A stretch of 29,708 bases of DNA from a virus: the IMG/VR virus record IMGVR_UViG_3300034198_029270, positions 1-29,708 of that record; one strand, written 5' to 3'. This document shows, piece by piece, positions 326 to 29,708 of the stretch; the stretch's first letter is position 1, and each line of letters opens with the position of its first letter. The notes beneath the pieces are model-generated. The model had not been told where the DNA came from and did not search any database. It saw only the letters and a program-made list of their open reading frames with translations. A program made the translations under genes and the position numbers.

Positions 326-880
326 ATGGCAGGATTATCTCACTTTTCAAATTCGATATCAGCAATAAACAGGTTCGAACCTGTTTATCTGAATCAGTTC
401 GAAGTTACTATTGTCCCACCGGCAGCTGTTGCCGGTGGTGAAATTTTACTTCAACATGTATCCAAGGTAAGTGGACTTTCTTTGGATAAAAACCCAGGAT
501 TAGCTACTCAGAAATTTAAGTTTGCTAAGAGAAACTATGCTGGTGCTAAACCAGATCAGACTTACATGGATCTTAGCGTTAGTTTCTCTGTTAACTTGAA
601 CGATGACAATTCAATGTACGTTTTCAGAACATTGAGACAATGGTCGGATCTAATCTACAATCCACTTACTGGAGCAATGGGATTAAAGAACGATTACGTT
701 GGAACAATAGTTGTTAACATCTTTAATAAGCAAGGAGATGTTTTTAGAAGAATTACATGTAGAGATTGCTTTCCGACTAAACCAATTTCTCCAATGAACC
801 TAAACTACACATCAACCGATTTATATAAGATTGATGATATGGTGTGGGCAGTTGATTATTGGGAGGATTTATTCCTATAA
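326..880 (+). CDS. Tail tube protein, copy A (gp19-like)
   Basis: 184 residues. It belongs to the T4 gp19 tail-tube family, whose hexameric rings stack inside the sheath to form the DNA conduit. Family-like features are the N-terminal block FEPVYLNQFEVTI, the central VNLNDDNSMYVFRTLRQWSDL, the NPLTGAMGLK loop and the C-terminal block ending VDYWEDLFL. T4 gp19 is 163 residues, so this is slightly longer. The next gene is a close paralogue starting 15 bases later. The start is the ATG giving MAGLSHFSNS, matched by MAGLPHFTNS in the second copy, which fixes both starts. Confidence 0.92.
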   Translation: MAGLSHFSNSISAINRFEPVYLNQFEVTIVPPAAVAGGEILLQHVSKVSGLSLDKNPGLATQKFKFAKRNYAGAKPDQTYMDLSVSFSVNLNDDNSMYVFRTLRQWSDLIYNPLTGAMGLKNDYVGTIVVNIFNKQGDVFRRITCRDCFPTKPISPMNLNYTSTDLYKIDDMVWAVDYWEDLFL

Positions 881-895: not shown

Positions 896-1471
896 ATGGC
901 AGGACTACCACATTTTACCAATTCAAAAGCAGCTATAAATAACTTTGAACCGGTTTATTTAAATCAGTTCGAGGTTATAATAAACCCACCTGCTGGTATA
1001 GTAGATGCTTCTACTACTTTTAATGGTGAGGGTATATTAGCTCAACAGGTTAAATCCATAACTGGATTAGCAGTAGATATTGCTCCTGCAGCAACTATAG
1101 AGCAAAACTATAAGTTTGCCACCAGAAGATATGCTGGGGGTGAGCCTTCTACTTCTGATATGACTCTTTCAATGGAATTCGAGGTCAACCTTAACGACCA
1201 GAATTCGATGACCGTATATAAGATTCTTAGACAGTGGTCGGATCTAATCTATAATCCCCTAACTGGAGCTATGGGTCTTAAATCTGATTATGTCGGATCT
1301 ATGGTTATCCAAGTTTTCAATAAAAGAGGGGATGTTTTTAGAAGAATCCGTATACCTTCATGCTTTCTAAGTGAAGCTATAAATGCAATGGAGCTAGACT
1401 ATGAGACTCCTGCAATCTACAATCTTAGTGCAAGCTGGATATGTGATTACTGGGAAGATACCTTCCTATAA
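896..1471 (+). CDS. Tail tube protein, copy B (gp19-like)
   Basis: 191 residues, paralogous to the gene just upstream along its whole length. It shares FEPVYLNQFEV, an LNDQNSM block, RQWSDLIYNPLTGAMGLK, VFNKRGDVFRRI and the DYWED-FL terminus. The two differ mainly near residues 30-60, where this copy carries a few extra residues (VDASTTFNGEGIL), and in the last third. Both copies look intact, with no stops or frame breaks, so neither looks like a pseudogene. Possible roles are a mixed tube, one copy serving as a tube-initiator or terminator ring, or a copy specialised at the baseplate end. The sequence does not decide between these. A strong terminator follows immediately. Confidence 0.92.
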   Translation: MAGLPHFTNSKAAINNFEPVYLNQFEVIINPPAGIVDASTTFNGEGILAQQVKSITGLAVDIAPAATIEQNYKFATRRYAGGEPSTSDMTLSMEFEVNLNDQNSMTVYKILRQWSDLIYNPLTGAMGLKSDYVGSMVIQVFNKRGDVFRRIRIPSCFLSEAINAMELDYETPAIYNLSASWICDYWEDTFL

Positions 1472-9794: not shown

Positions 9795-11996
9795 ATGGAA
9801 TTCGTAAACCAGGTAAAAAAGCTAAAAGACACAACAAAATCTGCTGAAGTCAAAGCTCTTTGTGAAAACTTCCTTAATGGTGGATCTGTTTCTAAGGAGC
9901 AATTGATGGAATCTCTAGATAACCACAATATATCTAATGAAAGCGTAAGCAACGTTCAGAGCCACGTAAATGCTATTAGAAATGAAGAGATGGAAGCTTC
10001 TAAAAAGGCAGCACAATTTCTTATGGAATCTTGGAATAGCTCAAACAGAGGATCATCATTAGGAAACTCAGGATCGTATAACTCATTAAATGAATCATCT
10101 GATAAAAACTCAGGAAGTGAATTTTTAGGAGATCTAGAAAAAATGAGTTCTTTGGATAAATCATCTCAGGAGTTTTTAAAATCTAACTCGGTTAATAATC
10201 TGGGTGTATTGGAATCTATCGATTCTATAAAATCATCATCGATTTATACCTATCCTAAGGCTAGAATTATCTGTGAGCAATATCATAATCTCATATCTAA
10301 TAAAAGAGTGCCTGAATTTGCACTAGTTCATAATTTCATTAATGATATTCAAGCTTTAAACTGGGATGATACAGTTAAAACTGTTTCACAGAATCTCCAG
10401 GAAAAAGCAGAAACATTATCTAGAGAGATCGAGGTATCTAAAGTTCTAGAAGCTATTAAAAATACTGGTAGCTCTGCTTTCTATTCAGAACTTAGTGATG
10501 TACTTAATGAATGGTTAGTTTCAGAGAATAAATCTAATGCTTTATTGGTTAAGAATGTATCTAAATGGTCATTTAATCCGATCGTTAGAAATCTAATCAA
10601 TTTTATAAACGTAAACGAGAATACTGATTCTAGAAAATTAGAAATTCCTGAGGTATCCCAAGGAGAATCCTCAGTATCTAGAGTTTTCTCTCCTGTTATG
10701 TTAGGTAGTCATAAATCTATCTTCTACTTAGGTGGAGGTGTTTTTGAAACTAATTCTGCAGATATTAAGAAGCTATCAGGAAAAGAAGTTCAAGGTCTTT
10801 CTTCCGATTATCTTTACCTAATCGAATCTTTCAACAGACCTTACGTTAAAGTTAACGAAAATGGTATTTTTGTTCAATTGGGTAAGAGCATCGTTACAAT
10901 CATAGAAGAAGGAGAAGAAACAGCGGTTTATTTAGGAAAAAGAAAACTTAAGTTTAGCGACCCTTCTGGACTTGCTAAAATATTAGGTCTAGAATCAGCT
11001 ACATACTTCGGAGTTAATGAAACACAAGTGGTTTCAGATATCATGAGACTTTATACCAATTACCAAAATATAGTTGAACTTGATTTTGCTAAGAGCATAA
11101 CATCTAACGTATTTGAAGGTTTATCTATAAATCTAGTAAAATGGAACAATCAGATCTATTTACAAAAGATTAACCAGGGAATGAATGAGAATTCAGTTTA
11201 CAAGGTTACTGGAAATCAGGCAGTATCAATGGTTAAAGAATTTATGAGATATGATATCTCTGAGGGATTAACTGAATTCTTAGTTGGAGAAAACAAGGTT
11301 AAATCCATCATGATCAACGATAGAAATAAGGTTATAGAAAATATTTCTAAGATCGAAGAACAAATAAACAAGATTGACAATCTAATGTCAACAAATCCTT
11401 TATATTCTGCTTCTTCTGAAGTGATGTCTGCTAAGAAATTGCTAGAGAATGAATTGAATGTTCTTAGAGAAAAATGGAATCAGATTAACTTGGAAATAGC
11501 TTCTAGTGAGTCAACTATTGAGTTAGAAAGATCTTTGGAAGTTTTTGAAGATGAAAAATTTAACATTGGTGATTTCATCAAAGTTAAAGAATCAGGTGAT
11601 ACCGGAAAAATAATCTCCATCGATGCTACTTCAGGAAGATACACTGTATTGTTAGATACAGGTAAAACTTCCGATTTCCTAATTAATGAGATTACAGATT
11701 TAGAAGAGGCTCTTAGCCAAGCAGCTGAGGATAATGCTAATTCTTCTGAAGAAGACGATTCGGAAGAAGAAGTTAAAGAGAATTTCGACATTCTTAGCGG
11801 CAATGGAAATAAGCTCAATAAATCTGAAATGCCTATAGAGGATCAGAAAAAATTACTCGATAATTTTGCAAAAGGACATGGTTTTTCTAATGCCCCTGGA
11901 AAGAATAAAGATGTTATTGATATGAAAATGGATGCTCTTCATGGATACAACTCTACAATGAATGAGGAGGAAGAGGCTTCAAAAAAAAAAGCTTAA
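9795..11996 (+). CDS. Large unknown protein with KOW-like domain; probable -1 frameshift at its end
   Basis: 733 residues in the zero frame, not recognised. The N-terminus is a helical segment with MESLDNHNISNESV, then a Ser/Asn-rich linker (about 70-115). The middle is a large mixed domain. Residues about 500-580 form a long charged coiled coil. Residues about 588-640 (FNIGDFIKVKESGDTGKI, then RYTVLLDTGK) look like a small KOW/SH3-like barrel, followed by a very acidic stretch. The zero frame ends at TAA 11994 straight after a run of ten A (11981-11990). The -1 frame stays open for a further 50 codons to TAA 12143-12145. A structural or scaffold-type role is possible from size and context only. 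Confidence 0.75.
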   Translation: MEFVNQVKKLKDTTKSAEVKALCENFLNGGSVSKEQLMESLDNHNISNESVSNVQSHVNAIRNEEMEASKKAAQFLMESWNSSNRGSSLGNSGSYNSLNESSDKNSGSEFLGDLEKMSSLDKSSQEFLKSNSVNNLGVLESIDSIKSSSIYTYPKARIICEQYHNLISNKRVPEFALVHNFINDIQALNWDDTVKTVSQNLQEKAETLSREIEVSKVLEAIKNTGSSAFYSELSDVLNEWLVSENKSNALLVKNVSKWSFNPIVRNLINFINVNENTDSRKLEIPEVSQGESSVSRVFSPVMLGSHKSIFYLGGGVFETNSADIKKLSGKEVQGLSSDYLYLIESFNRPYVKVNENGIFVQLGKSIVTIIEEGEETAVYLGKRKLKFSDPSGLAKILGLESATYFGVNETQVVSDIMRLYTNYQNIVELDFAKSITSNVFEGLSINLVKWNNQIYLQKINQGMNENSVYKVTGNQAVSMVKEFMRYDISEGLTEFLVGENKVKSIMINDRNKVIENISKIEEQINKIDNLMSTNPLYSASSEVMSAKKLLENELNVLREKWNQINLEIASSESTIELERSLEVFEDEKFNIGDFIKVKESGDTGKIISIDATSGRYTVLLDTGKTSDFLINEITDLEEALSQAAEDNANSSEEDDSEEEVKENFDILSGNGNKLNKSEMPIEDQKKLLDNFAKGHGFSNAPGKNKDVIDMKMDALHGYNSTMNEEEEASKKKA

Positions 11997-12629: not shown

Positions 12630-13115
12630 ATGGTTGATATCAAGAAAGTAAAGCCTAATGGCGAATATCGGTCTGGAAAATATGAACCTAGAAATCCCGA
12701 TAAGTATATCGGGGATATCCACAACATTATATACAGATCTTCTTGGGAGTATAGATTTTGCACATACTGCGATACTAACGAATCTATATTGAAATGGAGT
12801 TCCGAGCCGGTTTCGATTGACTATTATAATCCTTTAGATAAGAAAGACCATAAATATAATGTTGATTTCTACATAAAGGTTCTAAAAGAAAGCGGAGAAG
12901 AGCAAGAATGGATCATCGAGATAAAACCAGAGAATCAAACAAAAAAGCCTATATATGAAGGAGTGAACACCCTAAGTAAGCTGAAATCATATAACAGGAA
13001 TATGCAGATATGGATAACAAATCAGGCAAAATTCAAGGCAGCTAAAGAATGGGCATCTAAAAGAGGATTTAAATTTGGTGTTATTGACGAGAATTTTCTT
13101 TTTAAGAGTAAATGA
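12630..13115 (+). CDS. Head completion nuclease, gp4-like
   Basis: 161 residues, close to T4 gp4 (head completion). Landmarks are YRSGKYEPRNPDKYIG, YRSSWEYRFCTYCD (E40), ILKWSSEPVSIDYYNPLDKK, YNVDFYIKV (D79) and WIIEIKP (E97, K99). The E...D...E-X-K order is that of a TnsA/PD-(D/E)XK-like nuclease. In T4, gp4 acts after DNA packaging to finish the head so that tails can join. The protein is full length and every candidate catalytic residue is present. It follows the gp55-like gene by 8 bases and overlaps the next by 4 (ATGA), which suggests translational coupling. Confidence 0.9.
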   Translation: MVDIKKVKPNGEYRSGKYEPRNPDKYIGDIHNIIYRSSWEYRFCTYCDTNESILKWSSEPVSIDYYNPLDKKDHKYNVDFYIKVLKESGEEQEWIIEIKPENQTKKPIYEGVNTLSKLKSYNRNMQIWITNQAKFKAAKEWASKRGFKFGVIDENFLFKSK

Positions 13116-13714
13116 GTTTTAAAGATAGTTCTATTGAATATAGGGACAATGTTGGTTCTTCCGGTAACGTTTTTAAAGAGACGGATAGCTACTTTGTGAA
13201 TGGTTACTTCAAAAACGACAAGAGTTTTTTGAAACCTCCCATTTCAATAATTCCTGGAAGAATCTATTTTTTTAATTATTCCACTGATTCTAAAATTGAT
13301 AAGGCCCGTAAATTTATAAATAGATTTCCTGTAGTTTTGTGTACTGATTTTTTCGAATCGGGGGGATTCAAAATATTAAAGGGTATAGATATTGTGACTA
13401 CCCCAATGAGATATAGAATGGAAATTTTATCCAGAATATATGATAACTTTAACCAAACCATCATATCTAATGACATAGCAGAATCGGACGGTGGTAATAT
13501 ATCACCATTAAATTTAAAAGATTTGGAGCTGGATAAGATATTAAGAGGAACTGGATATAAGACATCCCTTTTTGGTTTTAAAACGAATTTTATGAAGAAT
13601 ATAGGATCAATTAAAAGTAAAGATTGGATAAAACTTCCGTATTTGAGTGTTAATCTGGTCGAGGGGTTAAATATATCGGGGATATATAGTGAATATGAAT
13701 CGAAATTAAAATAA
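13112..13714 (+). CDS. Conserved-looking phage protein of unknown function
   Basis: 200 residues, starting at the ATGA overlap with the gp4-like gene. The segment IIPGRIYFFNYSTDSK, then FINRFPVVLCTDFF and a Gly-rich turn, resembles a family seen in T4-like phages of marine bacteria, where a PG-hydrophobic-F-Y element precedes a DRFP-type motif. I cannot name it. There is no membrane segment, and the protein appears globular and mixed alpha/beta. Lying between gp4-like and portal genes, it may take part in head or neck assembly. A GATATATA octamer occurs within it at 13681, 47 bases before the portal gene. Confidence 0.65.
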   Translation: MSFKDSSIEYRDNVGSSGNVFKETDSYFVNGYFKNDKSFLKPPISIIPGRIYFFNYSTDSKIDKARKFINRFPVVLCTDFFESGGFKILKGIDIVTTPMRYRMEILSRIYDNFNQTIISNDIAESDGGNISPLNLKDLELDKILRGTGYKTSLFGFKTNFMKNIGSIKSKDWIKLPYLSVNLVEGLNISGIYSEYESKLK

Positions 13715-13735: not shown

Positions 13736-15394
13736 ATGGCTGGATTCGTCGAAAATAATAATCCCGGACAAACCCCTGTTATTCAGAGGATCCGGGATTC
13801 CGTAAGAAAATTGAGTACCTTCGGTATGAAGTACGATGACATGGTCATCCGTAACTCACAAGCTGTTGGTGTAACCGAAGCTTCTTTTTTAAATAAGAAT
13901 AAATCGAATGTTGAGGACGAGAGCATGCTCTGGACCTTAGCTAAGCAGGATATCTCATCGAAGCAGTTCATAGGATATTTTGATAAGGATTATAAAGGTA
14001 AGAGAGATTACTTAAGAAAATTCTCTCTAAATCCAGAAATAGAATGGGTTCTGGATACAATATGTGACGAAGCAATTTCGTATGATCCGTCCAATTTTTT
14101 TGCCTATCCCGATTTTATAGATCTTAGCGACATCAACGAAAAGCTAAAGGATGACCTATATGAGACGTTTAAAAGGCTATATGATATCTGGGGATTTTCT
14201 GATGATATTACTGCATGGCAATATTTTAGGCAGTTTATAGTTGATGGATTTCTTGCTTTTGAAATAATTTACGACGACAAGGGAAAGGAAATAGTTGGAT
14301 TTAAGGAACTAGATCCAATATCTTTAGTTCCCAGTGTGGAAAAACAAATAGATGGATCTTTCATTAATACTTGGACACAATATCCACAGGATCCTAAAAA
14401 GAAAAGAGTTCTTTACGATCCTCAGATAATATACATTTCTTATGCTAAGGGTAATGCAGTATCGAGAGTAAGCTACATAGAAAGACTAATAAGACCATAC
14501 AACATTCTTAGAATCATAGAATACACTAGAGTTATATGGTCAGTAATGAACGCGTCATTTAAATTAAAAATGACAGTTCCTATTGGATCTAAATCTCCTC
14601 AAAAGGGTATGCAAACTTTAGGTGAGCTAATGAGCATTTATAAGGAGGACATTCAACTAAACGACGAGAGCGGTGAATTAAGTATAGATGGAAGGCCTAA
14701 GATTCAGTTCTATAAGAATTATCTTATGCCTTCTGGTGTTAATGGAACACCTACTATAGAACCAATAACTACAGATGGTCCCAATCTTAATGATCCTGCA
14801 CCTTTAGCTTACTTTTTTGATAAATTTATATTGGAATCTAAGGTTCCGCCATCGAGATTTCATAATCCCGACGGCGGAACAACTTCACCATATTCTAATG
14901 GAGCGGAAGGACTAGATAAGGAGGAGATAAGATTTGCTAAATTCATTTCCAGATTAAGATCAATATTCCAAGAGATTATTACAAAACCTCTATGGATCCA
15001 GATGGTAAAAAAATACCCTAGACTCGAAGACGATTTCATGTTTAAGAGTCAATTGGGACTTGATTATTTCTCAGATAACCCATTCAAATTAAACCAGGAA
15101 ATTGATATAATAAACAAAAGGAAAGAAACTGTATCTGCTTTGGGTGGAATAGTAGGTGACGAAGATAAACCGTTTTTCTCTAATGCTTTCTTAATTGAGA
15201 CCTTCCTTGGAATTTCTAAGCAAGACATTGATGCAAATAAAGAGGCATTAAAAAGGAAAGAGAAAGAGAAGAAAGAAAAGGAAAAAGAGGGAGAAGCTGG
15301 AGGTGAAGAGGGTGCTGAAGCCCCTGCAGAAACGGAAGCTCCTGCAGAGACAGAAACCGAAGCTCCTGCAGAAGAAACACCACCTGCAACTTAA
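13736..15394 (+). CDS. Portal protein, copy A (gp20-like)
   Basis: 552 residues, near T4 gp20 (524). The portal dodecamer sits at one head vertex, nucleates the prohead and is the channel for DNA. Recognisable blocks are SVMNASFKLKMTVPIGSKSPQ, MSIYKEDIQLND, RPKIQFYKNYLMPS, FISRLRSIFQEIITKPLWIQM and the early YFDKDYKGKRDYLRKFSLN. The C-terminal 60 or so residues are low complexity: a Lys/Glu stretch, then repeated Ala-Pro-Ala-Glu-Thr. A full-length second portal gene starts 23 bases later. The frame and core motifs are intact, so this copy looks functional. Confidence 0.92.
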   Translation: MAGFVENNNPGQTPVIQRIRDSVRKLSTFGMKYDDMVIRNSQAVGVTEASFLNKNKSNVEDESMLWTLAKQDISSKQFIGYFDKDYKGKRDYLRKFSLNPEIEWVLDTICDEAISYDPSNFFAYPDFIDLSDINEKLKDDLYETFKRLYDIWGFSDDITAWQYFRQFIVDGFLAFEIIYDDKGKEIVGFKELDPISLVPSVEKQIDGSFINTWTQYPQDPKKKRVLYDPQIIYISYAKGNAVSRVSYIERLIRPYNILRIIEYTRVIWSVMNASFKLKMTVPIGSKSPQKGMQTLGELMSIYKEDIQLNDESGELSIDGRPKIQFYKNYLMPSGVNGTPTIEPITTDGPNLNDPAPLAYFFDKFILESKVPPSRFHNPDGGTTSPYSNGAEGLDKEEIRFAKFISRLRSIFQEIITKPLWIQMVKKYPRLEDDFMFKSQLGLDYFSDNPFKLNQEIDIINKRKETVSALGGIVGDEDKPFFSNAFLIETFLGISKQDIDANKEALKRKEKEKKEKEKEGEAGGEEGAEAPAETEAPAETETEAPAEETPPAT

Positions 15395-15417
15395 AGAGAA
15401 TACAAATATTATAGCTA

Positions 15418-17022
15418 ATGGCAGGATTTTTAGATTTTTTAAAACCAAATCAATCAGCTTTAGGTAATATCCTGAAGAACCTTTCCAATGTTGCAAAATT
15501 TGGAATGCAGTACGATGATATGGTTGTACGAAATTCCCAAGCTATTGGTAAAACCGAGGGATATTTTTTTAACCAAGAAAGCACAGGGTTTACCCAGAAT
15601 GATGCTTTCCAATGGACTGCTTCATACCAGGATACGAAGGTAAGAAAATATATTGCTTACTTTGATAAGGATTATATTGAGAAAAGAAATTACTTAAGAA
15701 AATTTTCTCTTAATGGTGAGATTGAATTCATATTGGATACTATAACAGATGAATCCATAGTTTATGACGACCGCAATTATTTTGCACAGCCAGCCTTTGT
15801 TAATCTAGATCTAAAAGATAAAATAAAAGATAAACTTGCATCCCACTATAATAGGATCTATAATGTTTTCGGATTTCAGAATACTATCCTAGCATGGCAA
15901 TATTTTAAACAGTTCCTAATTGATGGATTCCTAGCTTTCGAGATAATTTATGATAGCAAAGGAAAGGAAATAATTGGATTTAAAGAGCTTGATGCAACCT
16001 CTCTCCAACCTGTTGTAGAAAAGGTTGGAGAGAATGAATATAGACAATTCTGGATACAATACCCCAAGAATCCACAGATGACCAGAAAGCTAACTAATGA
16101 GCAGGTTATCTACATATCATATGCAAAGGGTAACACCATTTCTAGGGTTAGCTATATAGAAAGACTGGTTAGATCCTATAATATTTTAAGGATAATGGAA
16201 AATTCCAGAGTAATCTGGAATGTTATGAATGCTTCATATCGACTTAAATTCATTATTCCGATTGGTAGCCAATCTCCTCAAAAAGCGATGCAAACTTTGG
16301 GACAGTTAATGTCCAACTACAAAGAGGACATTTCTATTAATGATTCTTCTGGTGAATTAACAATAAACGGAAGACCTAAAGTACAATTTTATAAGAACTA
16401 TCTTTTCCCAGAAAAGGATGGACAAAGCCCGGATATATCTTCGCTTAACTCAGCAGGTCCTGACTTTAATGTGATGGAAAATGTCGTTTATTTTTTCAAT
16501 AAGCTAAAAATGGACTCCAAGATTCCTTATGCTAGATTTGCTTCTAAAAATACAACCCCTGGTAACTACCAAACAAGTATAGATCAGTTAGAGAGAGATG
16601 AAATAAGATTCGAGAAGTTTTTAAGAAGATTAAGATCAATATTTCAAGAGATCCTTGTTAAACCCCTTTACATACAGATGTGTCTAGAATATCCTGAATT
16701 ATCTAGGGACAAAGGATTTAAAGCAAATATCGGGTTAAACTACAATAGAGATAGTGAGTTCGAAGAAATGGTAGAACTCGCAGGATTCAGTAAAAGAACG
16801 GAATTCATAAACGGTTTAAGAGAGCTCAAAGTAAAAATTGGTGAGGAGGAGAAAGGCTATTTCGATCCTGATTTCCTAATTCAGAGATTTCTTGGAATGA
16901 ATCCTGATCAAATAAAAATGAATCAGAAGTACAAAGAAAGAGAAGAAAAGGAAGCAGAAAAAGCTAAAGAAGAAGGTGGAGAAAAAGAAGGAGAAGAAGG
17001 TGGACAAACAGTTACTCTTTAA
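15418..17022 (+). CDS. Portal protein, copy B (gp20-like)
   Basis: 534 residues, paralogue of copy A throughout: KFGMQYDDMVVRNSQAIG, YFDKDYIEKRNYLRKFSLN, AWQYFKQFLIDGFLAFEIIY, IPIGSQSPQKAMQTLGQLMS, FLRRLRSIFQEILVKPLYIQM. The match is spread over the whole length, including the wing, stem and crown-type segments, so this is a full duplication and not a domain repeat. Its C-terminal tail is again Glu/Lys/Gly-rich but without the Ala-Pro repeats. Copy B is closer to T4 gp20 in some places (FQEILVKPL, RPKVQFYKNYLFP). Which copy, or both, enters the portal ring cannot be told. Confidence 0.92.
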   Translation: MAGFLDFLKPNQSALGNILKNLSNVAKFGMQYDDMVVRNSQAIGKTEGYFFNQESTGFTQNDAFQWTASYQDTKVRKYIAYFDKDYIEKRNYLRKFSLNGEIEFILDTITDESIVYDDRNYFAQPAFVNLDLKDKIKDKLASHYNRIYNVFGFQNTILAWQYFKQFLIDGFLAFEIIYDSKGKEIIGFKELDATSLQPVVEKVGENEYRQFWIQYPKNPQMTRKLTNEQVIYISYAKGNTISRVSYIERLVRSYNILRIMENSRVIWNVMNASYRLKFIIPIGSQSPQKAMQTLGQLMSNYKEDISINDSSGELTINGRPKVQFYKNYLFPEKDGQSPDISSLNSAGPDFNVMENVVYFFNKLKMDSKIPYARFASKNTTPGNYQTSIDQLERDEIRFEKFLRRLRSIFQEILVKPLYIQMCLEYPELSRDKGFKANIGLNYNRDSEFEEMVELAGFSKRTEFINGLRELKVKIGEEEKGYFDPDFLIQRFLGMNPDQIKMNQKYKEREEKEAEKAKEEGGEKEGEEGGQTVTL

Positions 17023-17067: not shown

Positions 17068-18399
17068 ATGAGAAAAGAACTCCAACTATTTAAAGACCTA
17101 GAATCACTAACCGGTGAGGGATCACAAAAAGCAAAACAAAAAATAATCTCTGAAAATCAGACTGAAGAATTCTTATATCTTCTTGACATCTGCTTTAATC
17201 CTTTTGTTACTACAAAACTCCATAAGATCTCGTTTAACGAGACTTTATCCGAAATTGATGCTAACCACTGGGACAATTTTAAAAATCTCGTAGAAGAGCT
17301 AAAAATAGCTCCAGCTGCAAACGATTTGCTCAGAAAAAGAGCTCAGGATATAGTGTCTTCTAGAATCTGTGAAGATTCAGAAAATGATCTTTCTCTTAGG
17401 GAAGTCTTGATGAAGATCATCACAAAAAGAATGAATATTGGGATAGGTGCTAAACTTATCAACAAAGCAATAGGAAGAGAGGTAATTCCTGATCCTTCAC
17501 TTATGTTAGCCACCGATGATCATGAGATCATAGAAAAATGGGAAAAAATTTACTGCGAGGAGAAATACGATGGAGTAAGAGTTATTGCCATGTGGGCGGA
17601 CAATAAATTCTCCTATTTTACTAGAGCTTTTAATGAGTTGGATTCTGCATGCTTTCCTAAATTGTCAGAATCTCTCAGACTAGCAATAGAAAAGAGCGGA
17701 ATAACAGGTGACGTATTCTTTGACGGAGAACTTACCGATCTGAATAGAAAATCAGTAAGCGGGAAGGTTACTCAAATTTTAAAGGGAAAGGTCGATTCTA
17801 AGATAGAGGAGGGAATGATATTTAATGTTTTCGATCTCGAGAATAGCGAAACATTAATAAAAGGGAAGGGATCAAAAAAATACAAGGAGAGAAGAGATAG
17901 TTTAGAATCGGCCATCTCGAATATCCCGGAAGGATCTAATGTAATCCTAGCCCAAATGTGGGAGATGGATACACCTGATCAAATTACCCCGATCTATAAA
18001 AATATAGTCGATCAAGGTGGTGAGGGTGTTATCTGTAAGGATAATGGTGTATACGAATGCAAAAGATCCAAATCATGGGTAAAATTCAAAGAAGTTAATG
18101 AATGCGATCTTTTAATAACTGGATGGTATCCAGGAGAGGGAAAAAGAGAAGGACTGATCGGTGGATTTATTCTGACTGATTTATCTGGGACACTCCATGT
18201 AAGAGTTGGTGCAGGATTTACTGATCTTGACCTTAAAAATTTAAGTGTCTCCCCAGATTCACATACTGGTAAGATCGTTGCAGTTCAGTATAACGTCCCT
18301 ATTACAGATAAGCACGGGAATAGATCTTTATTTCTTCCTAGGTTTGTTGAAGTGAGAAATGATAAGGATGTAGCAGACGATCTTTCCTCATTATTTTAA
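17068..18399 (+). CDS. ATP-dependent DNA ligase (T4 gp30-like)
   Basis: 443 residues (T4 ligase has 487). The nucleotidyl-lysine motif I is EEKYDGVRV with Lys at 166. Further ligase motifs follow: FDGELTD (III), EGMIFNVFD (IIIa), GGEGVICKDN (IV) and SWVKFKE (V), then an OB-fold segment with GWYPGEGKREGLIGGF. The N-terminal 150 residues form a helical DNA-binding-type domain as in T4 ligase. It seals nicks using ATP during replication and repair. It opens the replication block and is followed by the clamp-loader gene 33 bases later. An AT-rich, U-rich leader precedes the ATG; no strong ribosome site is seen. Confidence 0.93.
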   Translation: MRKELQLFKDLESLTGEGSQKAKQKIISENQTEEFLYLLDICFNPFVTTKLHKISFNETLSEIDANHWDNFKNLVEELKIAPAANDLLRKRAQDIVSSRICEDSENDLSLREVLMKIITKRMNIGIGAKLINKAIGREVIPDPSLMLATDDHEIIEKWEKIYCEEKYDGVRVIAMWADNKFSYFTRAFNELDSACFPKLSESLRLAIEKSGITGDVFFDGELTDLNRKSVSGKVTQILKGKVDSKIEEGMIFNVFDLENSETLIKGKGSKKYKERRDSLESAISNIPEGSNVILAQMWEMDTPDQITPIYKNIVDQGGEGVICKDNGVYECKRSKSWVKFKEVNECDLLITGWYPGEGKREGLIGGFILTDLSGTLHVRVGAGFTDLDLKNLSVSPDSHTGKIVAVQYNVPITDKHGNRSLFLPRFVEVRNDKDVADDLSSLF

Positions 18400-18432
18400 G
18401 AAACACTTTCACTTTCACCTCATAAAAAATAT

Positions 18433-19377
18433 ATGATACAAGAACTGCTGACGGAAAAGCTTAGACCGAGAGATTTAAGGCATATGATTTTGCCTTCTCG
18501 TATTACTAAGATATTTGAAAATGGATTGGGACACAATGTCCTTTTAAGTGGATCCCCCGGATGCGGGAAAACCACACTAGCTAAAATATTGGCTGCTCCA
18601 TTTCCTCATCTTTTTATAAATGTTTCTGACGAAAGCTCAGTAGAAACGATTAGGGTTAAGATAAATGATTTCTGCTCTACCATTTCGATCATGGACGGTA
18701 AATCATCGAAAAAGGTTGTTATCTTGGATGAGTTCGATGGTGCATCGGATCAATTCTATAAAGCATTGAGAGGAACTATAGAAAAGTTTGCAGGAAATGC
18801 AAGATTTATTGCAACATGCAACTATATAAACAAAGTTCCTGATGCTATCCAGAGTAGATTTGAAGTTATAGATTTTAATCCCATATCTAGTCAGGAGGAA
18901 GAGGATCTAAAATTAGAGTGGAATAAAAGGATAAAATTAATTTTAAATAAAACCGGGATAGAGATAGACAACGACTCTTTACTGGAATTCCAAAGAAATT
19001 ATTACCCAGATTTCCGTTCAGCTTTAAATCGAATCCAAACCTGGATGATAGAAGGAATTAAAGTAGTAGACAGTAACAAGATAAACGAGTTTGGTTGGTC
19101 GTATGAGGATATCTACAATCTTATAGTTTCTTCCAAGGATCCGATAAAAAACTACCAGAATATTTCGGGAGAATACCAAGGGAAGGTCGATGATGTTATG
19201 TCCTCATTGGGGACTGAATTTATCGATTGGATAATAAAGAATAAACCAGATCTTTCCAATATAATTCCTGCAGTAATAGTTTTAGTCGCAGACCACCAAT
19301 CTCAGAGAACCCAGGTAATCGATCCTATGGTTTCATTACTTTCCCTTGTATTCAGTATACAAAAACTAATCCCGTAA
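18433..19377 (+). CDS. Clamp loader large subunit (gp44-like AAA+ ATPase)
   Basis: 314 residues (T4 gp44 is 319). AAA+ signatures in order: N-terminal LTEKLRPRDL, Walker A GSPGCGKT (40-47), Walker B VVILDEFD (95-102), sensor 1 TCN (128-130) and the SRF arginine-finger motif (141-143). The C-terminal collar domain fills the last 100 residues. With the small subunit (probable gene at 21031) it should load the phage sliding clamp onto primer-template DNA using ATP. The sliding clamp and polymerase genes are not in this window. Confidence 0.93.
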   Translation: MIQELLTEKLRPRDLRHMILPSRITKIFENGLGHNVLLSGSPGCGKTTLAKILAAPFPHLFINVSDESSVETIRVKINDFCSTISIMDGKSSKKVVILDEFDGASDQFYKALRGTIEKFAGNARFIATCNYINKVPDAIQSRFEVIDFNPISSQEEEDLKLEWNKRIKLILNKTGIEIDNDSLLEFQRNYYPDFRSALNRIQTWMIEGIKVVDSNKINEFGWSYEDIYNLIVSSKDPIKNYQNISGEYQGKVDDVMSSLGTEFIDWIIKNKPDLSNIIPAVIVLVADHQSQRTQVIDPMVSLLSLVFSIQKLIP

Positions 19378-19387
19378 TTTCTGTATA

Positions 19388-19900
19388 ATGGATTATAAAA
19401 GGATTATTATAGTTGGAAAGGGAGGATCAGGAAAGGATTACTTAAGAAAGCAGTTGGTTCGTGCGGGATTCAGATATTGTGTTTCCCACACATCTAGGCC
19501 AATAAGGGAGGGTGAAATAGAAGGCGAAGATTATTATTTTGTTTCCCCTGAATACTTCCATACTGTTCCTTTTTACGAGTGTGTGGTTTTTAATAATTGG
19601 CACTACGGAACTTCTATTGAGGAATTTAACAATTCGGATCTGTTTATAATGACTCCTTCAGGTTTATCCAAAATGTCTCCCGATGATAGGAAACAATCCC
19701 GGGTTATCTACATAGATATAGAGGAGAGCATCAGAAGAAAAAGACTTTCCAATAGAAGAGATGCAGATGATGTTGAAAGAAGATTGAAAGCTGACGATAG
19801 GGATTTTGAAAATTTTTGTGATTTCGATCATAGAACAACTAATCCCAATTTTACACTGGAAGAGATAGAGGAAGGAATAAAAATAAGAACAAATGGTTAA
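19388..19900 (+). CDS. Guanylate-kinase-like nucleoside monophosphate kinase
   Basis: 170 residues. P-loop GKGGSGKD (10-17), with Asp where Ser/Thr is usual, as also occurs in some phage dNMP kinases. The GMP-binding signature follows: SHTSRPIREGE (33-43) and DYYFVS (48-53). It lacks part of the usual C-terminal region, being shorter than bacterial Gmk (about 205). It likely phosphorylates (d)GMP or related nucleotides to supply DNA precursors, though specificity is inferred from the signature only. The gene overlaps the next by 8 bases and lies in a replication block, consistent with a nucleotide-pool role. Confidence 0.82.
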   Translation: MDYKRIIIVGKGGSGKDYLRKQLVRAGFRYCVSHTSRPIREGEIEGEDYYFVSPEYFHTVPFYECVVFNNWHYGTSIEEFNNSDLFIMTPSGLSKMSPDDRKQSRVIYIDIEESIRRKRLSNRRDADDVERRLKADDRDFENFCDFDHRTTNPNFTLEEIEEGIKIRTNG

Positions 19901-21029
19901 TATACTAATAGACGGGAATTATATCTTCCATAAAACTTTTGGAGTTTTTGGTGGATATGGAAATGTTGATCCAGGAAAAATACTCAAGGATAAGAAAGAG
20001 CAAGCAGCTTTCATACGTAAAATATCTACTGACCTTTGTGCTTCGCTAAAAATGATTCCTCAGGGAGGAAGGATGATATTTACATCAGACAGCAGGAGCT
20101 GGAGAAAGGATATCGAAATAGAGGACGGAGGATATAAATCTGGCAGAGTTAAGGACGAAAATGTAGATTGGACTATATTTTTCGAACTCATGAAAACATT
20201 TGGTGATCACCTAGAAAAAATGGGTTTTATTTTTTCTAAAGTAGATGGTGCAGAGGGTGATGATTTATTGATGTTTTGGTCCGAACATTTTCATTCAAGA
20301 AACGAGAATTGCTTAATCATTACAGGGGATAAGGATCTACATCAGCTCGCAAGGATATCTGAAAATTCATGGACTGTTATCTGGAACAATAATCAAAAGA
20401 AAAATACATTATTCGTACCTGAGAAATGGAAAGATCAATGGCTAGACAGAGATGAGTCTATTAGCATATTTAATATGGCATCTGCCATTTCTCCGGAAAA
20501 AGAGAGATTTAAAACATTTCTTAAGAAAGCAACCATAGAGGAGGTAGAAAGTAGATCATTCATTTTCATTAAGGTATTAATGGGAGATAAAGGAGATTCT
20601 GTTCCTAGCGTATGGGAGCAAACATCCGGATCAAGAACTATGGGGTTTACCCAAAAAAAGGCAGATACTGTATTTGAAGCATTTACTGCATCTGAGTGGT
20701 CAGATATCGAGTTTTCCCAGATGATGAATAACGAAGATTATTTGAATTGGGTTAGCGGTATGGTACTCCGAACATCAAAGTCAGTTGATAGCACAGAAAA
20801 CAGAAATAGGGTAAAGGAAAACATAATCAGAAATTTCAAGCTTCTGTGGCTTGATATTGATGTAATTCCTGATTTTGTCAAAGATTCGTGTGAGATTGAA
20901 ATAGAGAGGGGTATATCTCTGGATAAAAAAACAGTTACCCTGGACAGGATTAAGATACTGGAGGGAACTGAATGGGTTACTCCTAACTATCAACCTAAGG
21001 GATTTGATCCCTTTGAAAATTTTATCTAG
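19893..21029 (+). CDS. 5'-3' nuclease, RNase H / FEN family (T4 rnh-like)
   Basis: 378 residues, longer than T4 RNase H (305). Metal-binding acidic residues sit in the FEN pattern: D7 (ILIDGNY), D66 (TSDSRSW), E121/D123/D124 (AEGDDLL), D146 and D148 (TGDKDLHQL), then the H3TH motif GDKGDSVPSV (231-240). It should remove RNA primers and 5' flaps from lagging-strand fragments, next to the ligase that seals the gap. The extra length lies mostly between residues 155 and 225, where a stretch with KWKDQWLDRDES is inserted. All catalytic residues seem present. Confidence 0.9.
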   Translation: MVNILIDGNYIFHKTFGVFGGYGNVDPGKILKDKKEQAAFIRKISTDLCASLKMIPQGGRMIFTSDSRSWRKDIEIEDGGYKSGRVKDENVDWTIFFELMKTFGDHLEKMGFIFSKVDGAEGDDLLMFWSEHFHSRNENCLIITGDKDLHQLARISENSWTVIWNNNQKKNTLFVPEKWKDQWLDRDESISIFNMASAISPEKERFKTFLKKATIEEVESRSFIFIKVLMGDKGDSVPSVWEQTSGSRTMGFTQKKADTVFEAFTASEWSDIEFSQMMNNEDYLNWVSGMVLRTSKSVDSTENRNRVKENIIRNFKLLWLDIDVIPDFVKDSCEIEIERGISLDKKTVTLDRIKILEGTEWVTPNYQPKGFDPFENFI

Positions 21030-21030
21030 G

Positions 21031-21459
21031 ATGGAATTATTTGATGTAGTTAAAAATATTTTTTCTCAGGACAATAAAAAATGGGTCCAGGTTTCTAAAA
21101 ACGATAAATCCAGGAATTTTTTTATGATCAATCGGATAATGGCAATACAATTTCCGAATATAGCTAATCAATTCAATAAGATCAAAATAAATCCTGATGC
21201 TACCGTAGATTGGTGGAGAAATAACCTATCCTCTAGATATTCTAGACCTCCCAGCTGGATATACACAAAAACGATTAAAAAAGAGGCTAAGGCTAAGAAA
21301 TCTACAGGTTCATCTTGGGAAAATGTGGAAGTTTTCGTTAGAGATAGATATAATGTATCCAAGAGGGATCTTTCTGATTTAAAAAGATTTTATCCGGAAA
21401 GATATAATTCGTGGATGAAAGATATATCCGATCAGATAGGGATAAAAAATAATTCTTAA
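21031..21459 (+). CDS. Probable clamp loader small subunit (gp62-like)
   Basis: 142 residues from the ATG at 21031, 1 base after the previous stop; an in-frame ATG at 21004 would overlap. The pattern FFMINRIMAIQFPNIANQF, followed by WWRNNL, then a basic PSWIYTKTIKKEAKAKK segment and a C-terminal helical region, matches what is commonly annotated as the small clamp-loader subunit in T4-like phages. Similarity to T4 gp62 itself (187 residues) is not evident to me. Presence in the same block as gp44-like and nuclease genes supports the call. It has no ATPase motif, as expected for gp62. Confidence 0.6.
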   Translation: MELFDVVKNIFSQDNKKWVQVSKNDKSRNFFMINRIMAIQFPNIANQFNKIKINPDATVDWWRNNLSSRYSRPPSWIYTKTIKKEAKAKKSTGSSWENVEVFVRDRYNVSKRDLSDLKRFYPERYNSWMKDISDQIGIKNNS

Positions 21460-21460
21460 T

Positions 21461-22036
21461 ATGAAGAATAAACATTCTAAAATTATAGACAAAGTTATTT
21501 CAAGCTTAGATTGGGATGCTATCTTCGAGGTGAATAAATGCTTTAAACATGGTATAGGCGAGGGAACTTCTGCTATACCCGGGGTGAAAAGAAAACCATT
21601 TTCCGATGGTATAACTAAGAATGACATTAAAAATGAGCTCAAGGGATTACTCAAGTATGTAGTAGAAAACGACTATGCTGAACTGATCTATGGATATTGG
21701 ATGATATTCTGGAATAATGCAGAATGGGCAGAGGAGGATATCAGAAAAATCAGAGAGGAAATGGATGACGATGATGATGAAGGAATAGATCTGGGCGAAA
21801 TCTCAATAGATAATAGTTTGGAAGTTATTTACTCACCTCAGAGAACATTCATTGTTGAAGCTAGAAAATCTGACGGTACAAGCGAAGTAGAGGATAAGGA
21901 TGTGGTTAATCTGGAGAGTATGCTAAAAAAAGCTCTAGAATCTGAGCAGTACGAATTGGCTTCTAAGATTAGAGACGTTATAAAGCTCCAAAAAAATCAG
22001 GCGGATTCGGATACATATCCAGATGAAGTACATTAA
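21461..22036 (+). CDS. Unknown protein with C-terminal UVR-like motif
   Basis: 191 residues. N-terminal half (about 1-90) is mixed with FKHGIGEGTSAIPGVKRKPFSD; a strongly acidic stretch (EEMDDDDDEG) sits near the middle. The last third contains LESMLKKALESEQYELASKIRD, which fits the UVR motif (helical hairpin that UvrB and UvrC use to bind each other, also found in McsA and Clp-linked proteins). It starts 1 base after the previous stop and overlaps the next gene by 14 bases. The motif suggests protein-protein contact; nothing indicates nuclease activity. The UvdE-like gene lies two genes downstream. Confidence 0.65.
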   Translation: MKNKHSKIIDKVISSLDWDAIFEVNKCFKHGIGEGTSAIPGVKRKPFSDGITKNDIKNELKGLLKYVVENDYAELIYGYWMIFWNNAEWAEEDIRKIREEMDDDDDEGIDLGEISIDNSLEVIYSPQRTFIVEARKSDGTSEVEDKDVVNLESMLKKALESEQYELASKIRDVIKLQKNQADSDTYPDEVH

Positions 22037-22505
22037 ATCTATAAACGAGTATTTTGACGTAGGTGCATTTGGAGACACCTATGGTTACGGAGGAGCCAAT
22101 GGAGTTCTTAAGATAAACTATAAGCCTTTCAATGACCTTTCTGTTTCAGTTGGTCCCGATCCGAACATCGAAAGAACCGTAAAAGGATCCGAGTTTCAGC
22201 TAGGTGATGTGGTAATAGCTAAACCTCTTAACTCCAAGGATGAAGTGATAGGTGTTGTCGTTAGATCATTCAGAAATCCAGATAATCAGGAATATAGATA
22301 TTTCATTCAAGTTTACAACAAGGGTAAAAAAACGGAAAGAGTGATAGAGGTTAAATCTGACTCTATTAAATTCGCTGAAGGTGGTGATCACGGTAATATA
22401 GAATCTAAATCTAAATACAAGAATAACGACATTCCTAGCTCTGCATTTAATTCTAAGACTGTATACAATTCTAGTGAACTTGGTTTAGAAACTACCGGAG
22501 GATAG
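22023..22505 (+). CDS. Unknown protein
   Basis: 160 residues; not recognised. Starts MKYIKSINEYFD, a short N-terminal pattern that I associate with phage proteins but cannot assign. Residues about 55-115 are beta-rich (FQLGDVVIAKPL, VIGVVVRSF, YRYFIQVYN), a small barrel-like domain. The last 45 residues are Ser/Asn/Lys-rich and probably flexible. It overlaps the UVR-motif gene by 14 bases, so the two are likely translated together. A small barrel could bind nucleic acid, but no specific motif is visible. Confidence 0.6.
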   Translation: MKYIKSINEYFDVGAFGDTYGYGGANGVLKINYKPFNDLSVSVGPDPNIERTVKGSEFQLGDVVIAKPLNSKDEVIGVVVRSFRNPDNQEYRYFIQVYNKGKKTERVIEVKSDSIKFAEGGDHGNIESKSKYKNNDIPSSAFNSKTVYNSSELGLETTGG

Positions 22506-22540
22506 AAACCTAATTCTTACATTCGGATACAATAATTAAA

Positions 22541-23440
22541 ATGATATCCGCTAATACCCCATTAATTTCTTATCTAGGAATACCCAAAACATGGGCTTCA
22601 GATGGATTTAGAATATCCTCTCAGAAGGATCTTTTAAATTTGTTCGCAGATCTATGTAAATTCAACTCATCGATACAATGCAAATCTGTTTGTATTGATT
22701 CTGGTGAGATTGACTTCGATCCATCCATATTTGATTCGGTTCTAGACGAGACTGATCAGGAAACATCATCGATTCTTTTAGAAATACAGGAAATGATGAG
22801 AAGGGATAACATCAGAATATATTTTATCGTCTCTAAGGACTACTTTCTTGCAAGCCAGATAGATAACATCATTTCAACCACTACAAAATTTCTAAATTTT
22901 ATTGGTAATTTTCTGGATTCTGTTGGTGTAAATTACCCATCCATAGTAATTAGGATTGGATCTGCATACGGTAACAGAAAGGAAACGATGAAGATGTTTT
23001 GTGAGAGAGTTAAAGAACTTGATTCTGTTGTTTCATCTAAGCTCTGCGTTATGAATGACGATAAACCTAGTCTCTTCTCCGTAACTGATCTTTTAACTGG
23101 GGTGTACTACGGAGTTGGACTTCCTATATGCTTCAGAACTCTTGCCCACCATTTCAATGATGGCGGTTTATCCATAAGAGAAGCACTTTATCTTTCCTCC
23201 ACAACATGGTCTAGTGAAATATCCCCCCTTATCATACACTCAGAATCTAGGGAAACCAGCGAGAATGGGATTTTTTTAAGTCCATTAATTTCCGAAGAAT
23301 TGACCATGAGAATACCAACCTTTGGTCTTCATTGTGAGGTAATTATAGATTCATTGGGGAAGGAACTTTCTTACGTTAGCTATTTGAAAAATTACAAATC
23401 ATTTCCTCCGATTGTTATTAATAGGGTTTCTTCCAAATAA
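22541..23440 (+). CDS. UvdE/UvsE-like TIM-barrel protein with degenerate active site
   Basis: 299 residues, about the length of bacterial UvsE UV-damage endonuclease, and aligned with it along several blocks: IRIGSAYGNRKETM, KLCVMNDDK, VGLPICFRTLAHHFN and PLIIHSES. UvsE cuts 5' to UV photoproducts using several metal ions held by His, Glu and Asp. By my alignment, many ligands are changed here: the His of HPNQF is Ile, the His of IHIGG is Arg (138), the Glu of LENDDK is Met (171) and the Asp of FDFHH is replaced. The histidine of the last H-S block remains. So the fold is likely but catalysis is doubtful; binding to damaged DNA or another role is possible. Confidence 0.75.
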   Translation: MISANTPLISYLGIPKTWASDGFRISSQKDLLNLFADLCKFNSSIQCKSVCIDSGEIDFDPSIFDSVLDETDQETSSILLEIQEMMRRDNIRIYFIVSKDYFLASQIDNIISTTTKFLNFIGNFLDSVGVNYPSIVIRIGSAYGNRKETMKMFCERVKELDSVVSSKLCVMNDDKPSLFSVTDLLTGVYYGVGLPICFRTLAHHFNDGGLSIREALYLSSTTWSSEISPLIIHSESRETSENGIFLSPLISEELTMRIPTFGLHCEVIIDSLGKELSYVSYLKNYKSFPPIVINRVSSK

Positions 23441-23475
23441 TTTTTTATCCTGTATATTTTTTTTATTTTTGATGT

Positions 23476-27790: not shown

Positions 27791-27815
27791 AATGACACAA
27801 AAAGAAAAAAAGAAA

Positions 27816-29708
27816 ATGTCAACAACTCAAAGACTGAACGAAGAATTGGTTTTCATACTCGAAAGACAAGAACTTTTTCTTGAATCTAAGAAAGAGGGAT
27901 CAAGTGATTATGTATTAGAGGGTATTGCTGCAGTTTTCGGAAAAGAAAACAACAACAATAGAATCTACGAGGAGAAAGAATACCTTCCTCATTTAGATTA
28001 TCTTAAAGATAAGATAAAACAGAGAAGACTAGTTGGCGAATTGGACCACCCCGAAAAATTTGACGTTTCTCTTAAGAATATTTCCCACATCATAGAAAAT
28101 TTAGATTATGATAAAGGAAATAGACAACTTAAGATTAAAGTTAGATTATTAGATACACCAGCAGGTAAAATAGCTAAAAACTTAGTTGATGCTGGAGTTC
28201 CTTTATCTATATCTTCTAGAGCCGCTGGATCGGTTGGTGGAGATAGGAAAGTACAAATCAAGAAAATCTTCACATACGATTTGGTTGCGGATCCTGGTTT
28301 TCAAGATGCACAATTAGAAAGAGTATATGAGAGTGCAGGTTTCACTTACGAAGAATTCTTCGAAAAAAGAAATAACACTATCCTAAACAGCTTAACTTGC
28401 TTAAATGAATCATTAGGTCTGGAAAATGAATCACCAGTGAAGATATATAGAGTTGAAAACAACGAAGAATTTAATAAACTCGTGAAAACAGACAAAAATA
28501 AAGCATCCCTTATGGAGAATAATGAATTTGTTACCGCCGATGAATTGAACCAATATTCCATCTTTCTTAAGAAGGAAATGGATTCGATGAAGAATGAGCT
28601 AACAACTATTAGACAACAAAGAAGTTCTATTGATGAATCTAATACTGATTATTCTAAATCTTTGGTTAGCCAACTTGAGAATAGAGTAGCTAAATTAGAG
28701 AAATATTCAGAATATCTTGCTGAGAATTTAGACAACGCAATCAAATACGGAGAATATCTTGCTGAGAATTTAGATCAAAGCATTAGCTATAGCAAATATT
28801 TGGCTGAGAACTTGGATGAGAGCATTTCTTACTCCAAATATCTTTCAGAGAACGTAGATAAGAACATTTCTTACTCCAAATATCTTGCAGAGAATGTAGA
28901 TAAGTCAATTAGCTATACTGAGTACGTTGCTGAGAACGTTGATAGAAATATCGAATACTCTAAATATTTAGCTGAGAAATTAGATCAATCAATAGAATAC
29001 TCTGAATATTTAGCTGAGAACGTTGATAATAATATCGCATACAGCGAGCACATTGCAGAAAACGTTAACAGTGGAATTGCTTACACTGAGTATGTAGCTG
29101 AAAAACTAAATGACGGTATCGAATACACAGAATATTTAGCTGAGAATTTGAGCAAAACGATTTCTTATGCTGATTATCTAGCTGAAAATCTAAATAGAGG
29201 ATTAGACTATTCTGAATATTTAGCTGAAAAAGTTAAAAGAGGTATTGATTACGCAGAATACATTGCAGAAAGTATCAATACAGGATCAGAGGTAAATCCC
29301 GACTCATCTTCAGTTACTAACGTAGGTAACTTAAGAGAAAGCGTTGATGTTACTTACCACGCAGGCTTAAATGAGTCTGGTTTCGCTGGTAACTACGACA
29401 ATCTTACTTCAAAAATAGACAATTTGATCGAATCGGTTAAAACACAAAAAACCGAGTCAAATATAAACGAGGCTGCTACTAAATTACAGCCTCAAGCCGA
29501 CACACAAAAGGCTCAAGAAAACGTTCTGAACGAATCAATTAACGAGAATGCAACAGGTCTTAAATTTATTGATGAAATGCCAGAAGAATACACTTCAATT
29601 TGGGAGTCTCTAAACGAAGGTCATAAGCAATCAATCATTGCTCAAAGTCACTTCTACAGATTAGATACTGAATACCAAATTAAGAATTTCTGGTCTACTC
29701 GTCAATTA
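27816..29708 (+). CDS. Prohead protease (gp21-like) fused to a long repeat domain; cut at window edge
   Basis: 631 codons from ATG 27816 with no stop before the window ends (an in-frame ATG at 27792 is the alternative). Residues 30-165 are a T4 gp21-type serine protease: LEGIAAVFGKENNNNRIY, RRLVGELDHP (H78), LLDTPAGKIAKNLVDAGVPL and SISSRAAGSV (catalytic Ser likely 133 or 134), with a candidate acid in YDLVADPGF. T4 gp21 has 212 residues, but here the chain runs on: a linker, then fourteen 14-residue units (residues about 296-491), then a Glu/Asn/Ser-rich tail. The last visible part (MPEEYTSIWESLNEGHKQSI) looks like a structured C-terminal domain. The extension resembles a prohead scaffold, which T4 encodes separately as gp22. 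Confidence 0.85.
   Translation, partial: MSTTQRLNEELVFILERQELFLESKKEGSSDYVLEGIAAVFGKENNNNRIYEEKEYLPHLDYLKDKIKQRRLVGELDHPEKFDVSLKNISHIIENLDYDKGNRQLKIKVRLLDTPAGKIAKNLVDAGVPLSISSRAAGSVGGDRKVQIKKIFTYDLVADPGFQDAQLERVYESAGFTYEEFFEKRNNTILNSLTCLNESLGLENESPVKIYRVENNEEFNKLVKTDKNKASLMENNEFVTADELNQYSIFLKKEMDSMKNELTTIRQQRSSIDESNTDYSKSLVSQLENRVAKLEKYSEYLAENLDNAIKYGEYLAENLDQSISYSKYLAENLDESISYSKYLSENVDKNISYSKYLAENVDKSISYTEYVAENVDRNIEYSKYLAEKLDQSIEYSEYLAENVDNNIAYSEHIAENVNSGIAYTEYVAEKLNDGIEYTEYLAENLSKTISYADYLAENLNRGLDYSEYLAEKVKRGIDYAEYIAESINTGSEVNPDSSSVTNVGNLRESVDVTYHAGLNESGFAGNYDNLTSKIDNLIESVKTQKTESNINEAATKLQPQADTQKAQENVLNESINENATGLKFIDEMPEEYTSIWESLNEGHKQSIIAQSHFYRLDTEYQIKNFWSTRQL
28701..29288 (+). repeat. 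Fourteen tandem 42-base units encoding a 14-residue repeat
   Basis: Units follow the pattern [KSEAD]-Y-[STGA]-[EKD]-[YH]-[LVI]-[AS]-E-[NKS]-[LVI]-[DNSK]-x-x-[IL], in perfect register for 14 units without a gap. DNA copies have diverged (mainly at third positions and variable residues), so they are old and under selection for protein sequence. The period equals two heptads and would give a long helix with one hydrophobic face. Confidence 0.93.

Follow-up and report, generated by a model that had tools for sequence, protein, structure and literature searches.

In tailed phages and in herpesviruses, few components vary as little as the portal, which is encoded by one gene and present in twelve copies at one vertex. 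The IMG/VR virus record IMGVR_UViG_3300034198_029270, a stretch of 29,708 bases analysed here over its whole length (the window), carries two complete T4-type portal genes in tandem, which we call portal A and portal B. Possession of the pair marks out a clade of huge uncultured phages, the sister clade of which keeps one portal, and in the paired clade the tail tube is doubled too; in these respects the analysis goes beyond a preliminary description of the window made from its letters alone. Comparison of the genes and their relatives suggests that both products are needed and that A and B may well form a mixed (hetero-oligomeric) portal ring, a reading to which we assign about an even chance of being correct.

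Portal A (13736..15394, plus strand) is predicted to encode 552 amino acids and portal B (15418..17022, plus strand) 534 amino acids; the spacer between them is 23 bases long (15395..15417, plus strand). In searches with the Portal_T4 profile (PF07230; curated cut-off 22.9 bits), portal A scores 197.1 bits over profile positions 7-431 of 433 and portal B 230.3 bits over positions 3-432, and each also matches phrog_213 (portal protein). The two proteins share 51% identity over 507 columns, with a BLASTP score of 524 bits, so that their likeness is not a matter of chance. The preliminary description had reported two full-length, diverged gp20-like genes with common core blocks and differing C-terminal tails, and it is borne out on each count. 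The blocks read SPQKGMQTLGELMS in A and SPQKAMQTLGQLMS in B, RPKIQFYKNYL in A and RPKVQFYKNYL in B, and LRSIFQEI in both. The tails diverge beyond residue ~505, that of portal A being acidic and P/E-rich and that of portal B ending in -VTL.

Comparison with solved structures at the sequence level returned T4-type gp20 portal entries only, for both proteins. AlphaFold2 models of A and B have modest mean predicted local distance difference test (pLDDT) values of 65.4 and 65.9, with a good first wing stretch and a poor clip and tunnel loop; the top Foldseek matches of both models in the PDB are T4 gp20 chains (probability 1.00), with template modelling (TM) scores by query length of 0.44-0.50 in the T4 rows. 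By family, each is an ordinary T4-type portal. The T4 gp20 portal itself is a dodecamer of one protein (PMC4493910). It belongs to the same family as the pair, is the best match in sequence and fold, and likewise has head-closure and protease neighbours, but it is encoded by one gene, whereas the paired clade has two genes that are kept together. With two genes it is doubtful that all twelve subunits of the ring are the same.

The distribution of the pair was established from 319 portal-bearing loci, gathered from scans of viral contigs (at most 80 best loci each) and from fetched loci; many of these are overlapping views of one contig. Portal A is followed by portal B in 217 of the 319, which reduce to 69 unique pairs, always in the order A then B, and 53 of these 69 are flanked by 1.7 kb or more in each direction and lack a third copy. 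Portal A stands alone in five loci and portal B in two, all seven of which break off at the contig end. A second copy recently broken in relatives, the possibility raised against the pair in the preliminary description, was seen in 0 of the 69 unique pairs; neither copy is broken in any of them, and copies are missing only where the contig ends. This co-retention without a single loss indicates that each copy does something that the other cannot.

Single-copy loci make up the rest. Type C portals account for 92 loci, of which 87 belong to a sister clade around LR756500 and five to more distant phages; 68 of the 92 are unique, and 40 of these, with flanks of 1.7 kb or more in each direction, lack a second copy. 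The remaining three loci are also single-copy: LR745206, and two Lak loci in which the one portal is split by recoded TAG codons. Profile scans of whole records agree: all 27 paired-clade records scanned (67-434 kb) have two portals and no more, all 17 sister-clade records (including LR756500, G019, and G020) have exactly one, and one each is found in LR756502, LR756504, LR745206, Lak-A1, and Lak-B5; several of these records are near-copies (the G019 portal is identical to that of LR756500), and the 27 and the 17 are not all independent.

Outside these clades the portal is normally single, as the preliminary description had stated. A search of the phage collection with portal A found 1,976 records at 1,978 places, and one with portal B found 2,075 records at 2,077 places, the excess in each case being due to LR756501 and LR756503 with two places each. 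LR756501, a 735-kb phage, has one full portal and a portal-like piece of 58 profile positions (374-431) at about 15166-15351. No other phage with two such portals was found in the phage collection, which may omit records very near the window, and among the papers listed by full-text searches of the open-licence literature none described a phage with a pair of portal genes. The nearest portals in the collection are those of huge uncultured phages (LR756500, 44-46% identity) and of the Lak phages (34-36%). Taken together, the nearest portals at 33-46% identity are those of the LR756500-like sister clade, LR756501, LR756502, LR756504, LR745206, and the Lak phages of Prevotella, in records of 462-735 kb; these single-portal huge phages have one full portal and, where it was found, one tail tube (Lak phages being outside the tube count). 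The nearest host-annotated phages include Prevotella and Tenacibaculum phages, from which we infer that the host of the paired clade may belong to the Bacteroidota; a Sphingomonas phage is about as near to portal A as the Tenacibaculum phage is.

A tree of 113 portal sequences, built by a quick method and with long outgroup branches of unsure position, places 41 A sequences, that of the window among them, on one side of a branch (Shimodaira-Hasegawa-like approximate likelihood ratio test [SH-aLRT] support 100), 41 B sequences, again including that of the window, in a second group (100), and 25 single-copy C sequences of the sister clade in a third (99). A and B are joined to each other with a support of 99. 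No A groups with a B, and the two subtrees have matching main groups. The tree of gp20 homologues and the database searches proposed in the preliminary description hence separate A, B, and C and point to one duplication, a single tandem event placed by the tree at the base of the paired clade. The stem branch of A is slightly longer than that of B (0.74 versus 0.62), and identity between A and B within a phage is 47-54% across 41 phages.

Selection on the two genes was estimated from the ratio of nonsynonymous to synonymous substitution rates (dN/dS). Of 663 computed comparisons, the 24 in the usable dS range (0.1-1.5), all between close relatives, were kept and 639 were dropped. Among these, dN/dS has a median of 0.020 in A and of 0.017 in B, with maxima of 0.043 and 0.040, and both portals are under strong, nearly equal purifying selection. 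The earlier statement that neither copy shows decay is consistent with this figure of about 0.02 in both and with their open frames.

A and B have also diverged in step (r = 0.94, slope 0.995, 820 phage pairs). When the nearby DNA ligase was used as a control in 36 phages, the correlation was 0.943 for A with B, 0.779 for A with ligase, and 0.807 for B with ligase, and the partial correlation of A with B was 0.848, values to be read with the caveat that the ligase may itself have moved between phages. The mirror-tree correlation was considered as proof of contact between the two proteins and is retained only as consistent with it, because vertical inheritance combined with equal rates would produce such a correlation as well. 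The spacing between A and B is 1-23 bases in 70 distinct pairs, the window pair included, which would suit balanced synthesis of the two products. A fusion of A and B, suggested by a 1080-amino-acid open frame in two records, was dropped in view of in-frame stops in the DNA of one of them and of a stop codon in every one of the 70 distinct pairs.

These data bear on two other accounts of the pair, namely a dosage effect or redundancy of interchangeable copies, or an assembly artefact in which two phages have been joined into a chimera. Tandem duplications of other genes do exist in these genomes. An artefact is, however, difficult to reconcile with contigs from dozens of separately numbered metagenomes that have the pair in the same order and with closely matching A and B subtrees, and redundancy would not be expected to give a dN/dS of 0.02, an absence of loss, and one clade each for A and B. 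We regard accounts of this kind as extremely improbable.

To locate the differences between the copies, sites were defined as A/B-specific when conserved to 90% or more in each of A and B yet different between the two; domain limits were moved from T4 gp20 by alignment, using the limits given in PMC4493910, and are accurate to a few residues. There are 32 such sites, of which 22 lie in the stem, clip, and tunnel loop (146 columns), eight in the N-terminus and wing (297 columns), and two in the crown and tail (84 columns). When only sites conserved in A as well as in B are counted, the channel region is enriched relative to the rest (odds ratio 3.5, p = 0.002), while differences that separate sub-clades inside A or inside B tend the other way (odds ratios 0.0-0.29). 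In T4, adjacent subunits have the clip sheet in common and their tunnel loops are suggested to touch; contact with the capsid is mainly through the wing (PMC4493910). The enrichment was considered as proof of a mixed ring and dropped in that role, since controls with clade C are enriched too; it is kept as weak support.

At the 32 sites, the residue of the sister clade is kept by B at 15, by A at seven, and by neither at 10, a pattern suggesting that both copies have lost ancestral-like states, at different places. The imbalance between 15 and seven, with the slightly longer stem of A, would also fit a scenario, listed in the preliminary description as a new role for one copy, in which one of the two no longer serves as a portal and has become a neck adaptor, a nucleator of head assembly, or a regulator of portal assembly. 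A protein so released would be expected to change faster or to lose domains, whereas A and B hardly differ in stem length or in later rate and both align over nearly the whole portal profile; we consider this scenario rather improbable.

The main rival to a mixed ring is that A and B each form a homo-oligomeric dodecamer at a different place or stage, for example one in a prohead initiation complex and the other at the mature vertex, or as stacked rings like those of the crassvirus tail barrel. Profile and fold are those of a complete portal in both copies, so that either could close a ring by itself; two rings would account for co-retention; and the crassvirus tail barrel does stack rings of paralogous ring proteins (PMC10172136). 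Those paralogues, however, are only 14.9-18.6% identical, with 30.6% for the closest pair (PMC10172136), compared with 47-54% for A and B. Moreover, the N-terminus and wing, the latter being the main capsid contact in T4, hold only eight of the 32 sites against 22 in the stem, clip, and tunnel loop, and a single major capsid protein (MCP) and a single large terminase subunit (TerL) would have to serve both rings. On balance two separate rings seem unlikely, although more probable than any of the other rivals.

One further feature of the C-termini concerns their last residues. An ending of the form [VIFLA]T[LI] occurs in 59 of 69 B proteins and 41 of 69 A proteins, in both partners in 32 of 69 pairs, and in 0 of 66 sister-clade portals. 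This hydrophobic-T-L ending follows a charged tail; portal A of the window is without it. In the paired-clade record G003 it is found in six of 356 open reading frames (ORFs), both portals included.

The tail tube is doubled as well. In the window, tail tube protein 1 (326..880, plus strand; 184 amino acids) matches phrog_32623 (E 9e-38) and the tail tube family phrog_45 (E 8e-10), and its tandem paralogue, tail tube protein 2 (896..1471, plus strand; 191 amino acids), matches phrog_32623 (E 6e-32) and the tail tube family phrog_3629 (E 3e-6); neither has a Pfam match. Two tandem copies of phrog_32623 are present in 24 of the 24 paired-clade records that show any tube (9/9 and 15/17, the other two having none), and one copy in 11 of 17 sister-clade records (2/3 and 9/14), with zero in the other six. 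LR756501, LR756502, LR756504, and LR745206 have one tube each. A tree built from 46 tubes has three groups: tube 1, with only moderate support (84/80), tube 2 (99/95), and the single tubes (100/100). The doubling of the tube falls, as reconstructed, on the same stem as that of the portal.

An all-against-all comparison of the 356 ORFs of G003 (373 kb), counting adjacent pairs whose alignment covers at least 90% of the longer protein, gave two pairs, one of portals and one of tubes. Both recur among the best 15 of 40 pairs in another record of the paired clade, G010 (413 ORFs), where that set also holds two further strong adjacent pairs, of which one is full length at 39% identity; the portal and the tube are hence the pairs shared by the two genomes, not the only ones there. 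The sister-clade record G019 (418 ORFs) has other adjacent pairs and no portal pair; it has no match for tube, sheath, or TerL, and with the tube region missing the absence of a tube pair is uninformative, whereas that of a portal pair is informative. The scan covered 400,000 of 429,198 bases in G019 and 400,000 of 434,509 in G010.

That portal and tube are the adjacent full-length pairs common to both scanned genomes (in G010 among the best 15 of 40 pairs) would fit a scheme in which the phages make two sorts of particle that differ in portal and tube, one having A and tube 1 and the other B and tube 2, or with the tubes exchanged. The preliminary description had likewise considered alternative portals for two capsid forms. 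This option is disfavoured by the full-length MCP, prohead protease, sheath, and TerL, each of which is single in 9 of 9 paired-clade records, although a protein of ~300 amino acids resembling Gp23 accompanies them in 7 of the 9. One MCP, one protease, and one terminase argue against two particle types; optional equipment should have been lost somewhere, and no loss is seen in the 69 unique pairs; and in the window all four portal and tube genes have the same orientation. Two particle kinds are therefore very unlikely.

The second Gp23-like protein (matching the Gp23 capsid profile at L341:2314-3219 in G003 and, for example, at G007:C1:73823-74635) was found in 0 of 3 sister-clade records. It covers the middle and end of the Gp23 profile, lies far from the head genes, and is perhaps a vertex or minor capsid protein.

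Several features together favour a mixed portal ring: the two copies are equally constrained and closely spaced, their A/B-specific sites gather in the channel and contact region, and the tube is doubled as well. One tandem portal duplication took place in the ancestor of this clade of huge uncultured T4-type phages, and we propose that the duplicated subunits would at first have co-assembled randomly in the ring. Each copy could then have lost a different part of its self-contact surface until only mixed rings closed, whereupon both would be kept as mutually indispensable. An alternating ring of six A and six B subunits would be the simplest form, other ratios being possible; composition, stoichiometry, and the mechanism that would have fixed them are inferred here from comparative data. 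Of the options listed in the preliminary description, a mixed 12-mer is thus the best supported, by co-retention, equal constraint, spacing of 1-23 bases, single-copy capsid partners, and tube duplication. The second ring of the DNA conduit, that of the tail tube, may be mixed likewise. That the whole conduit is built from paired paralogues, with a hetero-dodecameric portal (e.g., A6B6 with six-fold symmetry) and a hetero-hexameric tube (e.g., with three-fold symmetry), is a more tentative extension, which we rate somewhat below an even chance.

Several points weigh against a mixed ring. Co-retention means that both copies are needed and is not proof that they share a ring, and the co-divergence of A and B would also be expected from vertical inheritance under equal constraint. 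The enrichment of A/B-specific sites in the channel is not significant when the conservation threshold is raised to 100% (p = 0.094), and at the 90% threshold a weaker form of it is seen when C is compared with A (odds ratio 2.75, p = 0.011) or with B (odds ratio 2.38, p = 0.031), so that the clustering of sites in part reflects deep divergence. In 70 of 70 distinct pairs a stop codon lies between the genes (TAA in 66, TAG in four), and no fused A-B gene was found. Finally, the ~300-amino-acid Gp23-like protein of 7 of 9 records leaves room for a more complex head.

The gene neighbourhood is that expected of a T4-type portal, with a gp4-like protein, protease, and capsid protein around the portals. 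Upstream in the window are a head-closure protein (gp4-like; 12630..13115, plus strand; phrog_218, E 5e-47) and, directly 5' of portal A, a protein weakly resembling a DNA end protector (gp2-like; 13112..13714, plus strand; phrog_429, E 0.0014 only); a gp2-like gene lies no more than 400 bases before portal A in 28 of 41 representatives. The genes 3' of portal B encode DNA ligase, clamp loader, guanylate kinase, and 5'-3' exonuclease, among others. A prohead protease or core protein (gp21-like; 27792..29708, plus strand; PF03420, 33 bits against a cut-off of 27) is cut by the window end, and in relatives such as G001, G002, and G007 the MCP lies on the same strand about 16 kb past portal A. 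Replication and nucleotide genes, including one that is UV endonuclease-like, occupy 17068-27748 and separate portal from protease in the window; in the sister genome LR756500 the protease is the next ORF of at least 250 amino acids after the portal. A protein of 733 amino acids encoded at 9795-11996 has no named family. It matches 16 records of the phage collection, LR756500 and 15 Lak phages, with 23-27% identity among the matches listed (best 10 of 16), and is possibly a core or tail protein common to these huge phages.

Known systems offer partial parallels. In the V-ATPase proteolipid ring of yeast, the ring subunit was duplicated to give vma3 and vma11, each copy lost a different interface, and both became indispensable, with copy-specific substitutions near subunit contacts (PMC7414715). 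According to that source this was established by experiment and by cryo-electron microscopy, whereas for the portal pair it is only proposed, and the two rings are unrelated in structure and function. Duplication of the tube domain in the T5 tail tube protein pb6 gives a threefold, pseudo-hexameric conduit ring (PMC5717097); there, the copies are fused in one protein and, in the account given, the portal is not involved. The crassvirus tail-barrel proteins R1-R5 are paralogous dodecameric ring proteins in one virion, but they are described as stacked one-protein rings, far more diverged than A and B, next to a single portal oligomer (PMC10172136). Paralogues in the T4 and SPN3US virions include duplicated head genes of large T4-related phages, in this case a prohead protease paralogue, with no portal duplication among those described in the part of the source consulted (PMC5694885). 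The moraphages, aquatic jumbo phages with T4-type virion genes and predicted Bacteroidota hosts, are possibly related to the paired clade; their group 1 is nearer to Lak phages than to T4, and their portal family has an occurrence of 25, two copies not being mentioned in the sections of that source consulted (PMC12619734). Accounts of other portals describe one portal in two conformations in JBD30, neighbouring subunits in SU10, strands of two subunits in TP901-1, and a portal gene that is fragmented or divergent in Jug phages.

The retention of two portals through deep divergence shows that the constraint to a one-gene portal can be broken. A practical consequence is that surveys using the portal as a single-copy marker would count phages of the paired clade twice. 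The pair also provides a natural test of what portal symmetry is for, be it the docking of five terminase subunits, the fit to the neck, the gating of DNA, or the nucleation of the head. A mixed portal, if true, would to our knowledge be the first, and such a ring would make these phages a clean viral example of complexity that arises from duplication and mutual dependence through complementary loss of interfaces.

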